NCBI GenBank assembly: GCA_013821605.1
Contig: JACDGP010000055.1
Span: 1 to 34,040, forward strand
Direction of reading: 5' to 3'
DNA length: 34,040 nucleotides
DNA from: Herpetosiphonaceae bacterium
Lineage (GTDB): Bacteria > Chloroflexota > Chloroflexia > Chloroflexales > Kallotenuaceae
Part shown: in pieces, positions 21,492-29,225 of the stretch
Layout: every line of letters starts with the position of its first letter
How positions within the stretch are numbered: position 1 is the stretch's first letter
The notes under the pieces: model-generated
Told to the model about the DNA's origin: nothing
Database searches by the model: none
Seen by the model: the letters and a program-made list of their open reading frames with translations, nothing else
Translations under genes and position numbers: made by a program

Positions 21492-21569
21492 CTGCCAAGC
21501 TATGCTATGCTGTACGTCACCATCCCGGCACGTACTGGAGCTCGTTGAAGAAGACGCTGTCGTCAGTAA

Positions 21570-21821
21570 CCGCCCCTAAAGGAGGCGGCTTGATCGAAGG
21601 GTCAAGCCTATACTGACCAGACTCAGTCAAGCACCTCGTGCCCTTTGGGCAGGTGCAGGACTACGTTTTTCGGGTCATGCTACCTACGAGTGCGTTGCCA
21701 GCTTGTAGCTCTAGCGTCTGTGATCATGACACCTGAGGTAAGGGTGAAAGGTTGCAGACCGCACAAGCCCGAAATACATTGTCGAGGCGAACATCACCCG
21801 CGTGAGCGGAGAGGAACTCTT
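21570..21821 (+). ncRNA. Omega-RNA-like structured leader of the iscB relic
   Basis: The 250 bases before iscB contain no convincing protein and several stem-loops: CCGCC/GGCGG (21570-21588), GGCTTGA/TCAAGCC (21587-21608) and GCACCT/AGGTGC with an inner GCCC/GGGC (21631-21656). In IscB systems the guide-carrying omega-RNA is encoded immediately upstream of the gene, in exactly this position. The call rests on position and folding potential and not on a covariance match. Confidence 0.5.
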
Positions 21822-22627
21822 GTGAACCAGGTTTTCGTTTTGGATACCAACAAGCACACGTGCGACCCGGTGCATCCGGCCTGCGCCCGGCGGTTGTTGA
21901 AGACCGGTGAGGCAGCCGTCTTTCGCCGCTTTCCCTTCACGATTATTTTGAAGGTGGCCGTTATTGAGGCGCAGACACAATCCTACCGCTTGAAAATCGA
22001 TCCGGGGAGTAAGACGACCGGGATTGCCATCCTGAGCGAAGAGACGGGCCAGGTCGTCTTTGCTGCTGAACTCGCTCACCGTGGGCAACGGATACGAGAC
22101 GCGCTTGCCAAGGATGCGGCAGCCTCAATGCGACCCGGTGGGCGTTATATGAGCGATTGTGTGCGCTTGGCGTTCCCGTCGAGGTTGGGAGCGGTGGGCT
22201 CACGAAGTACAATCGCACACGGCGGGGGCTGCCCAAACGACACTGGCTGGATGCGGCCTGTGTTGGAGTGAGTACGCCGCCGTCCATCTGGAATACCGGA
22301 GGACAGCCACTTATCATCAAGGCGTTCGGTCACGGGATGCGGCAGATGAGTTATCCTGATAGATACGGCTTCCCGAAACGCCAGCGTCAGCGCGTCAAAA
22401 CCTACGCCCATGAGGGCACCCGTTTTGCGACGGGGGACTTGATTCAAGCGAAGGTGGGTGCTGGCAAGGTGCAAGGCGTGCAGACGGGGCGGGTCACGAT
22501 ACGGCAACGTCCGAGCTTTCGCTTGCACGGGCTGGACGTGCACCCGAAGCAGTGTCGGATACTTCAACGGAATGACGGCTACGACTATTCGTTCGGAAAG
22601 GAGGCGGCGCATTCCCCCGCCACCTAA
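21822..22627 (+). pseudogene. iscB: iscB remnant: internal deletion plus frameshift
   Basis: A GTG at 21822 (AGAGGA six bases upstream) opens a clear IscB N-terminus: a PLMP-type domain (VFVLDTN, then HPACARRLLKTGEAAVFRRF) and RuvC-I (KIDPGSKTTGIAIL). After RGQRIRDAL at about 22106 the reading jumps to KDAAA, then shifts frame near 22125 and continues as NATRWALYERLCALGVPVEV and HWLDAACVG (RuvC-III region) to a stop at 22625-22627. Intact IscB has an Arg-rich bridge helix, RuvC-II and an HNH domain between these parts; all are missing. One base appears lost (a Val codon reduced to TC). The normal PLMP motif reads TCDP. The product cannot be an active nuclease. Confidence 0.85.
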
Positions 22628-22646
22628 AGGAGGCGGGGGAATGCGC
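22607..22646 (+). repeat. Right-end hairpin of the IS element (15-bp perfect stem)
   Basis: GCGCATTCCCCCGCC (22607-22621) pairs exactly with 22632-22646 around the loop ACCTAAAGGA, and TTTT follows. The iscB stop codon lies inside the loop. The structure is both the element end and a plausible rho-independent terminator. It ends seven bases before the ATG of the acyl-CoA dehydrogenase gene. Confidence 0.75.
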
Positions 22647-22653
22647 TTTTATT

Positions 22654-23814
22654 ATGGAACTATCCGAAGACCTCAAGTTGTTGCGCACCACGATCCGCAA
22701 TTTTGCAGTCAAAGAAATCAAGCCCATTGCTCGCGAGATCGACGAGCAAGAGCGCGTACCCATCGAAACGATCAAAAAAGCGGGTGAGCTTGGCCTCTTG
22801 GGTGTGCCCTTCCCCGAACAATATAGCGGTGTGGATGCCGGGATCGTTGGCTACTGTATCCTCATGGAAGAGATCAACCGTTATTGCGCCTCAACGGCCA
22901 CGATCATTGGCGCGCACGCCCAACTCTGTGCCATGTCGATCTTTCTGGCCGGCAACGCAACACAGCGCGATACCTGCCTCACCGCGCTTAACGAGGGCCG
23001 ACTGATCGGTGCCTGGGCCTTGACCGAACCCGGTGCCGGCTCGGATGCCGCCCATATTCGGACGGCGGCTCGGCGCGATGGCGACAGCTGGGTGCTCAAC
23101 GGCTCCAAGATGTGGATCACCAACGGCTCGTTCGCCGATGTCATCGTGGTCTTTGCCGTCACCGATGCCGAACGGGGCGCACGGGGTGGCATCACCGCCT
23201 TCATCGTCGAAAACAGCTTTCCCGGCTTCAAGGTCGGCCAAGTCGAAGCAAAAATGGGCTTGCGGGCCTCGCACACCGCCTCGCTCTTTTTTGAGGAGTG
23301 CCGCGTCCCCGCCGCGAATGTGCTGGGTGAGGTTGGCATGGGCTTTGTGGTCGCAATGCAAACGCTTGACATCGGTCGTTGCGGCCTGGGTGCAAGTTCG
23401 TTGGGAGCCGCCAAAGAAGCTTTTGAGCTAGCCCTGCACTATAGTGTCGAGCGCCAACAATTCGGCCGTCCTATCGCTGATTTCCAGGCGATTCAGATCA
23501 AGCTGGCTGAGATGCGCACCAAAATTTACGCTATGGAGCAGATGGTCTACCATTGCGCCGCACTGGTCGATGATCACCAGCCTGCAACGCTTGAGTCAGC
23601 GATGGTCAAGCTCTTCTGCACTGAAGCGGCCTCGCAGGTGATCGACGAGGCGATCCAGATACATGGTGGGATGGGCTTTAGTCGCGAGCTACCCCTGGAA
23701 CGCATGTACCGCGATGCCCGTGTGACACGCATCTTCGAGGGAACGAATGAGATCCAAAAACATGTAATCGCCGCCGAGGTCCTCAAAAGCGTCGGTCACA
23801 AGATCAAGATCTAG
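22654..23814 (+). CDS. Acyl-CoA dehydrogenase
   Basis: The 386 residues match the usual length. The FAD and substrate signature AWALTEPGAGSDAA (about 113-126) and the flavin-contacting MWITNGSFADV are present. So is the C-terminal YRDARVTRIFEGTNEIQ, where the Glu before GT is the catalytic base in short- and medium-chain enzymes. It oxidises acyl-CoA to enoyl-CoA, passing electrons to ETF. Chain length is not readable with certainty; a short or branched substrate is plausible. The N-terminus is intact, but no ribosome site lies next to the ATG because the iscB element ends seven bases before it. Transcription may be blocked or re-driven by the element. Confidence 0.92.
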   Translation: MELSEDLKLLRTTIRNFAVKEIKPIAREIDEQERVPIETIKKAGELGLLGVPFPEQYSGVDAGIVGYCILMEEINRYCASTATIIGAHAQLCAMSIFLAGNATQRDTCLTALNEGRLIGAWALTEPGAGSDAAHIRTAARRDGDSWVLNGSKMWITNGSFADVIVVFAVTDAERGARGGITAFIVENSFPGFKVGQVEAKMGLRASHTASLFFEECRVPAANVLGEVGMGFVVAMQTLDIGRCGLGASSLGAAKEAFELALHYSVERQQFGRPIADFQAIQIKLAEMRTKIYAMEQMVYHCAALVDDHQPATLESAMVKLFCTEAASQVIDEAIQIHGGMGFSRELPLERMYRDARVTRIFEGTNEIQKHVIAAEVLKSVGHKIKI

Positions 23815-28311: not shown

Positions 28312-28340
28312 AAAGCTTGACTTTTCGGGAGAAAGAGGCC

Positions 28341-29225
28341 ATGAATACGCCCCATGACCCACGTGATGTCATTCGCCGGTTGATCCAGTGGGCCGATCAG
28401 CAGAAGTTGGTTCGCGCGATGCTCCTAACCAGCACACGCGCAAATCCACATGTGCCAGTGGACGTCTTTTCCGACTATGATGTTGTGCTCGTGATGACGG
28501 ATATCCACCCATTCTTCACCGACCGGTCCTGGCTGGAGGACTTTGGTGAGGTACTCGTCATGTATTGGGACCCTATGGACCCCGAGCCTACGTATGGCAT
28601 CGAACAGACGGGCAATGTCATACAGTACGCCGATGGTCTAAAGATCGATTTCAGACTCTGGCTAGTCGCCTTGTTGCACCAGATGACGCAGGCTCCGACG
28701 CTACCGGCCGGACTGGACGCTGGATACGCCGTGCTGGTCGATAAAGACCACCTGACCGCTGGTATGCGCCCACCCACCTACCGCGCCTATATCCCGACCC
28801 GGCCCACCGATGAGATCTATCAAACGATGATTCGGGACTTCTTCAGTGATGCTCCCTATGTAGCGAAGTGCCTTTGGCGCGACGAGTTGTTACCGGCCAA
28901 GTGGTGCCTGGACTACGACATGAAACACAACTATCTGCGCCAAATGCTGGAATGGCGGATAGAACGCGATCACGGCTGGTCGATCCCGACCGGGGCCTTG
29001 GGAAAAGGATTGAAAAAGCGGCTACCCCCTGAACTCTGGCTCCAACTGGAGAGCACCTACGCGGGTGCCGGGATCGCGGATAACTGGGAAGCACTGTTTC
29101 GGCTGATGGCGCTGTTCCGGCAGGTGGCGATCGAGGTGGCTGACGATCTGGGCTACACCTACCCGCATGACCTTGATCAGCACGTGACAGCATATGTGCA
29201 GTCCATGAAGGATGTGAAGCTATGA
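28341..29225 (+). CDS. ANT(6)-like aminoglycoside 6-adenylyltransferase family protein
   Basis: The ATG at 28341 gives 294 residues. The nucleotidyltransferase active site is clear: LLTSTRANPHVPVDVFSDYD, where the two Asp of the final part bind metal, corresponds to the GSRTN-FQDYD pattern of AadK/AadE. A further acidic strand is LKIDFRLW. The C-terminal half has KWCLDYDMKHNYLRQMLEW, LGKGLKKRLPPELW and TYPHDLDQHV, as in the family. ANT(6) enzymes adenylylate streptomycin. Divergence means the substrate may be another aminoglycoside or cell metabolite. The base composition is GC-rich, unlike the kinase gene just upstream. Confidence 0.8.
   Translation: MNTPHDPRDVIRRLIQWADQQKLVRAMLLTSTRANPHVPVDVFSDYDVVLVMTDIHPFFTDRSWLEDFGEVLVMYWDPMDPEPTYGIEQTGNVIQYADGLKIDFRLWLVALLHQMTQAPTLPAGLDAGYAVLVDKDHLTAGMRPPTYRAYIPTRPTDEIYQTMIRDFFSDAPYVAKCLWRDELLPAKWCLDYDMKHNYLRQMLEWRIERDHGWSIPTGALGKGLKKRLPPELWLQLESTYAGAGIADNWEALFRLMALFRQVAIEVADDLGYTYPHDLDQHVTAYVQSMKDVKL

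Follow-up and report, generated by a model that had tools for sequence, protein, structure and literature searches.

The Locus and Its Features

The window, the whole stretch of 34,040 nucleotides analysed here, carries on its forward strand an iscB pseudogene that spans positions 21822 to 22627 and consists of two pieces in two frames. The pseudogene lies inside an insertion element that begins with an omegaRNA and ends directly before the start codon of an acyl-CoA dehydrogenase gene. The features of the locus, in order along the strand, are as follows.

21546 to 21561, + strand: predicted omegaRNA guide segment in the host flank, about 16 nt, placed from the element end and the IscB guide length
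21562 to 22653, + strand: entire IscB-type (HEARO) insertion element of 1,092 nt; both ends can be recognised by comparison with the ends of relatives
21562 to 21797, + strand: omegaRNA (HEARO, RF02033), full length, positions 1-211 of 211 (cmscan)
21822 to 22121, + strand: 5' iscB piece with the PLMP-like domain (TCDP) and RuvC-I (KIDPGSKTTG) (NF040563, alignment)
22106 to 22110, + strand: deletion junction RDALA/KDAAA (alignment with full-length relatives)
22122 to 22126, + strand: one-base deletion (frameshift) in the codons before NATRW (frame comparison with canonical KDAAAVNATRW)
22124 to 22627, + strand: 3' iscB piece with RuvC-III (HWLDAACVG) and the WED/TI region to the stop (NF040563)
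22412 to 22423, + strand: 12-nt in-frame insertion (EGTR) in the C-terminal region (alignment)
22607 to 22646, + strand: right-end palindrome (GCGCATTCCCCCGCC...GGCGGGGGAATGCGC) (inverted self-match)
22654 to 22657, + strand: target-flank motif ATGG on the expected TAM side (ATGG/ATGA flank in relatives)
22654 to 23814, + strand: acyl-CoA dehydrogenase gene, whose start codon is in the ATGG (Pfam Acyl-CoA_dh domains)

Two Pieces of iscB and Two Lesions

The 5' frame matches positions 1-96 of the 314-position NCBIfam IscB model NF040563 (E 4.7e-29, 101.5 bits) as well as Pfam PF14239 (RRXRR; E 6e-28), and the shifted frame matches positions 268-314 of the same IscB model (E 9.9e-13, 47.9 bits). 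The 3' piece is 52-57% identical to the C-termini of Ktedonobacter IscBs. Chance is excluded because both pieces are strong matches, stand in the right order and spacing, and lie directly downstream of a full HEARO RNA. The pseudogene starts with a GTG at 21822 and its last stop is at 22625-22627, as a first-pass annotation made from the letters had placed it; after the one-base loss, the 5' frame stops at 22269-22271 in the list of open reading frames.

Between the pieces about 165-170 codons are gone, which correspond to model positions 97-267 and encode the bridge helix, RuvC-II, and HNH. The split of the model thus bears out the first-pass reading of an iscB relic devoid of these three parts. 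The distance from the RuvC-I piece to NATRW is 17 nt in the window versus 450-600 nt in 118 N-to-C pairs and 507-525 nt in the close relatives. Where relatives read ...RGQQIRDAL-(bridge helix, RuvC-II, HNH)-APLKDAAAVNATRW, the window reads ...RGQRIRDALA joined to KDAAA; the left-hand frame runs on through KDAAA, and NATRWALYERL... then follows in the other frame. The protein alignment sets the two lesions about 15 nt apart, with the junction at 22106-22110 and the shift at 22122-22126, in agreement with the direct join at about 22106 and the one-base shift near 22125 that had been proposed. A single out-of-frame deletion in place of two lesions was rejected since the left-hand frame still extends through the right-side KDAAA ahead of the shift. 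The sequence of events put forward at the same time, deletion and then frameshift, is not established because a deletion keeps the frame by chance one time in three. The 12-nt insertion at 22412-22423, unique to the window and absent from the other 98 of the 99 aligned sequences, is a possible further lesion.

The RuvC catalytic residues of OgeuIscB are D61, E193, H340, and D343, and its bridge-helix arginines anchor the guide seed (PMC9640706). The window has the PLMP-like domain and RuvC-I of a functional IscB but lacks the equivalent of E193, the RuvC-II glutamate, together with the bridge helix and HNH. Where a functional IscB would be read in a single frame of about 400-450 aa, that of the window breaks at about 22122-22126, and both model scores fall far below the curated cut-off of 175 bits. 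With the guide-anchoring helix, the RuvC-II glutamate, and HNH missing and the frame broken, the nuclease encoded here cannot be functional.

The omegaRNA, the Element Ends, and the Insertion Site

The full-length omegaRNA scores 124.4 bits (E 1.3e-26, cmscan with RF02033) against a gathering score of 83, and ranks 33 among the 100 HEARO matches listed for 301 Chloroflexota genomes. The left end of the element is HEARO position 1, which is where identity among the copies of an ORF-less element starts. On the right, the palindrome at 22607-22646 agrees in position with the right-end hairpins of relatives and is followed by TTTTATT and then by ATGG. Intact copies from Ktedonobacter racemifer stop directly before ATGG, and those of Desulfobacter latus and of locus L090 stop before ATGA. 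HEARO elements are reported upstream of ATGA or GTGA. With the right end before ATGG and the left end at HEARO position 1, the element is 21562-22653, a total of 1,092 nt. An omegaRNA-start left end, a right-end palindrome, and an ATGG/ATGA flank are the marks of an ISC or IS200/IS605-like element, and all three are found here. No Y1 (TnpA) transposase gene lies inside the element; three Y1_Tnp genes are present elsewhere in the genome, and their products might act on the element.

The predicted pre-insertion site is ...GAAGACGCTGTC joined directly to ATGGAACTATCC, and an empty site of this kind was seen in no relative. The length of the predicted guide follows that of IscB guides, which is about 16-17 nt (PMC9640706). 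The search for a guide target elsewhere in the genome yielded only matches with three mismatches, as many as the reversed control. No spacer separates the element from the ATG of the acyl-CoA dehydrogenase gene, and the first Pfam match in that gene starts at residue 4. The original upstream signals of the gene would now lie about 1.1 kb away, and its expression may depend on element sequence. The complete omegaRNA, the intact element ends, the insertion at ATGG, and the 12-nt insertion in iscB were all absent from the first-pass annotation.

Conservation and Age of the Retained Sequence

None of the 35 invariant positions in the retained parts is changed in the window. At 95%-conserved positions 3 of 62 are changed (intact-copy mean 2.0%), and at 90%-conserved positions 8 of 84 (mean 3.4%), a level that 2 of 50 intact copies reach or exceed. 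The earlier argument that good conservation outside the scar suggests recent decay is only loosely supported: the invariant positions agree with it, but the 90% level weakens it. Measured against the divergence from the known relatives, at only about 60% identity, the changes are consistent with recent decay, but they give no date. Synonymous sites would be saturated for dN/dS dating, as the relatives are only about 55-60% identical. The description of the locus as a "dated" fossil is not established, there being no strain-level relative. Nor is the TCDP motif as unusual as had been claimed: it is one change away from PCDP, the motif of both full-length IscBs (L090 and L092) of one genome of the same family.

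The Rest of the Genome

The model search of the contigs gave no other iscB above the NF040563 cut-off in the genome, and the covariance model gave no second HEARO RNA. A full-length copy elsewhere in the genome, which the first-pass annotation proposed to look for and which might have been a donor, was found neither by DNA nor by the IscB or HEARO model. The weak matches on C127, C256, and C35 span no more than a part of the HNH-side profile and probably represent ordinary HNH proteins. The assembly consists of 259 contigs. In the neighbourhood of the element 20 ORFs run without a break, and the domains of those assigned to Pfam families are largely complete; the full-domain matches of the long ORFs among them argue against a generally indel-ridden assembly. 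A full-length Adenyl_transf gene (PF04439, streptomycin adenylyltransferase family) is located at 28317-29225 of the window, with an AAA_33 gene before it.

Deleted and Gene-Less Elements in Other Genomes

The survey covered 301 Chloroflexota genomes with up to seven candidates scored per genome, and the counts given here are sample counts. The first-pass annotation had taken the short form for decay and not for a form maintained in relatives, and neither this form nor its junction occurs among 80 GTDB loci and the matches listed for the 301 genomes. The exact junction had 0 matches in viral contigs, and plasmid records held only relatives below 60% identity.

Other internal deletions of iscB were found. 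In a Chloroflexota genome (L123:1559-2449, genome G269) an in-frame deletion of about 119 codons, HRGQ/VEHI(IP), leaves a 299-aa ORF beside an intact omegaRNA of 113 bits. Two cases come from Desulfobacter latus. In one of them (L080:3230-3912) a relic of iscB with two deletions and an intact omegaRNA is followed directly, head to tail, by an intact element; the first deletion in the relic brings together two copies of the 8-nt direct repeat ACAGTTCC, with loss of the middle of iscB. The other (L064:4413-5483) has a full omegaRNA and has lost in frame about 75 codons spanning HNH, and its bridge helix and RuvC-II remain within a single open frame of 357 aa (stop to stop). A further small loss follows RuvC-I in this copy; despite it, the copy would represent an IsrB-like architecture that arose de novo. 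No two of the junctions agree, which is consistent with independent decay.

Of the 100 listed HEARO matches, 40 without a listed IscB partner were inspected downstream. One has a shortened iscB, six run into a contig end, and in the remaining 33 the downstream DNA, at least 545 nt in each case, gives no IscB-like match. These 33 gene-less loci (among L173-L210), of which 29 are above the gathering score, correspond to roughly one third of the 100 omegaRNA loci listed for the 301 genomes. Four near-identical gene-less omegaRNA copies of about 430 nt in genome G304 (L190, L191, L192, and L193) begin at HEARO position 1, end in ...CCATTATAA, and have unrelated flanks, from which it follows that gene-less elements can multiply. 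ORF-less omegaRNAs are also present in K. racemifer.

Two further kinds of iscB variation were observed. In three loci of Ktedonobacteria and relatives (L124, L043, and L046), iscB is split by insertions of about 2.4 kb in which a group II intron is matched and an ORF of 563-689 aa carries a YADD motif; in two of the loci the insertion is at the same HNH position, after ...CAYC/CAMC. The IscBs of three Bacillota MAGs (L047, L053, and L072) have about 42 extra residues between RuvC-I and RuvC-III, with a spacing of 651 nt.

Interpretation of the Locus

The feature is very probably an internally deleted, non-autonomous insertion element of the IscB type (ISC/HEARO, IS200/IS605-like) with a dead nuclease. 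According to this model, a full-length element would have inserted immediately in front of the acyl-CoA dehydrogenase gene, 5' of the ATGG with its start codon. The bridge helix, RuvC-II, and HNH would then have been deleted in frame from the iscB of the element, probably through slippage or microhomology by analogy with the Desulfobacter latus relic, since no close intact copy gives the exact breakpoints. One base would also have been lost about 15 nt downstream of the junction, while the omegaRNA and both ends remain. The element could possibly be mobilised in trans by a Y1 transposase and may in future persist as a gene-less omegaRNA element.

It is very unlikely that the scar is a sequencing or assembly artefact, such that iscB is intact or only deleted in frame and the apparent loss of one base, or the entire scar, is erroneous. 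The closeness of the two lesions and the fragmented assembly would favour an error, but no homopolymer is present at the shift (GCAGCCTCAATG), there is no second genomic copy to cause a mis-join, and a loss of 500 nt is atypical of base-calling error; the unbroken neighbouring ORFs with their largely complete domains also speak against it. A functional miniature IscB derivative, in which joint expression of the pieces, by frameshifting for instance, would give a nuclease-inactive omegaRNA-binding protein, has hardly any probability. The unchanged invariant residues, the intact omegaRNA, and the two other deleted copies that remain open (299 aa in L123, and 357 aa stop to stop in L064) would suit such a protein. 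However, it would need a -1 shift, and programmed frameshifting was rejected for want of a slippery heptamer at 22119-22130; moreover, the bridge helix with its anchoring of the guide seed is gone, no relative has the junction, and deletion sites vary between short copies, as expected for decay.

The protein might instead be dead and the omegaRNA retained, either for use in trans by an outside IscB or for the mobility of the element. This is unlikely, even though omegaRNA elements without a gene are common in the phylum (33 of 100 sampled loci), with multiplication in some cases, and the score of the window omegaRNA is typical for the listed matches. Neither another IscB nor a second copy of the element occurs in the genome, other matches to the guide do not exceed chance, and selection on the RNA cannot be demonstrated from a single locus. 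The reading as a deleted, non-autonomous element with a dead nuclease is preferred.

As such, the locus is ordinary, since decayed or gene-less copies are common among relatives, and being a dead copy of a known element it changes little by itself. The wider pattern in the Chloroflexota may deserve study, with about one third of the sampled omegaRNA loci devoid of iscB, some of these multiplied, and repeated internal deletions of iscB. It is a rather doubtful, though conceivable, proposition that the locus is a snapshot of IscB elements shedding their nuclease and becoming gene-less guide-RNA miniature elements, which may multiply with the help of a Y1 transposase and supply guides in trans to intact IscB copies. 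If omegaRNAs without a nuclease of their own are used in trans, ORF-based surveys have undercounted the guide repertoires of IscB genomes.

Comparison with Known Systems

The closest known systems are the ISC/HEARO IscBs of K. racemifer, of other Ktedonobacteria, and of L090 and L092 from the same family, to which the retained protein parts of the window are about 55-65% identical. They share with the window the upstream omegaRNA, PLMP, RuvC-I, RuvC-III, the C-terminal region, the right-end hairpin, and the ATGG/ATGA flank; unlike them, the window has no bridge helix, RuvC-II, or HNH and is frameshifted. IsrB, the HNH-free OMEGA nickase, likewise has PLMP and RuvC-I/III and no HNH, but its bridge helix, REC linker, and RuvC-II are all retained within a single open frame of about 350 aa (PMC9581776). 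The window is without these and its frame is broken, so that IsrB identity was rejected, as the first-pass annotation had concluded. The shortened copies L080, L064, and L123 all resemble the window in having an intact upstream omegaRNA and an internal iscB deletion, but their breakpoints differ, and L123 and L064 keep an open frame. Gene-less HEARO elements (such as L190-L193, L196-L200, and L199/L201/L181) are like the window in their left-end omegaRNA, right-end palindrome, and defined ends; they carry no trace of iscB, whereas the window still has both ends of the gene.
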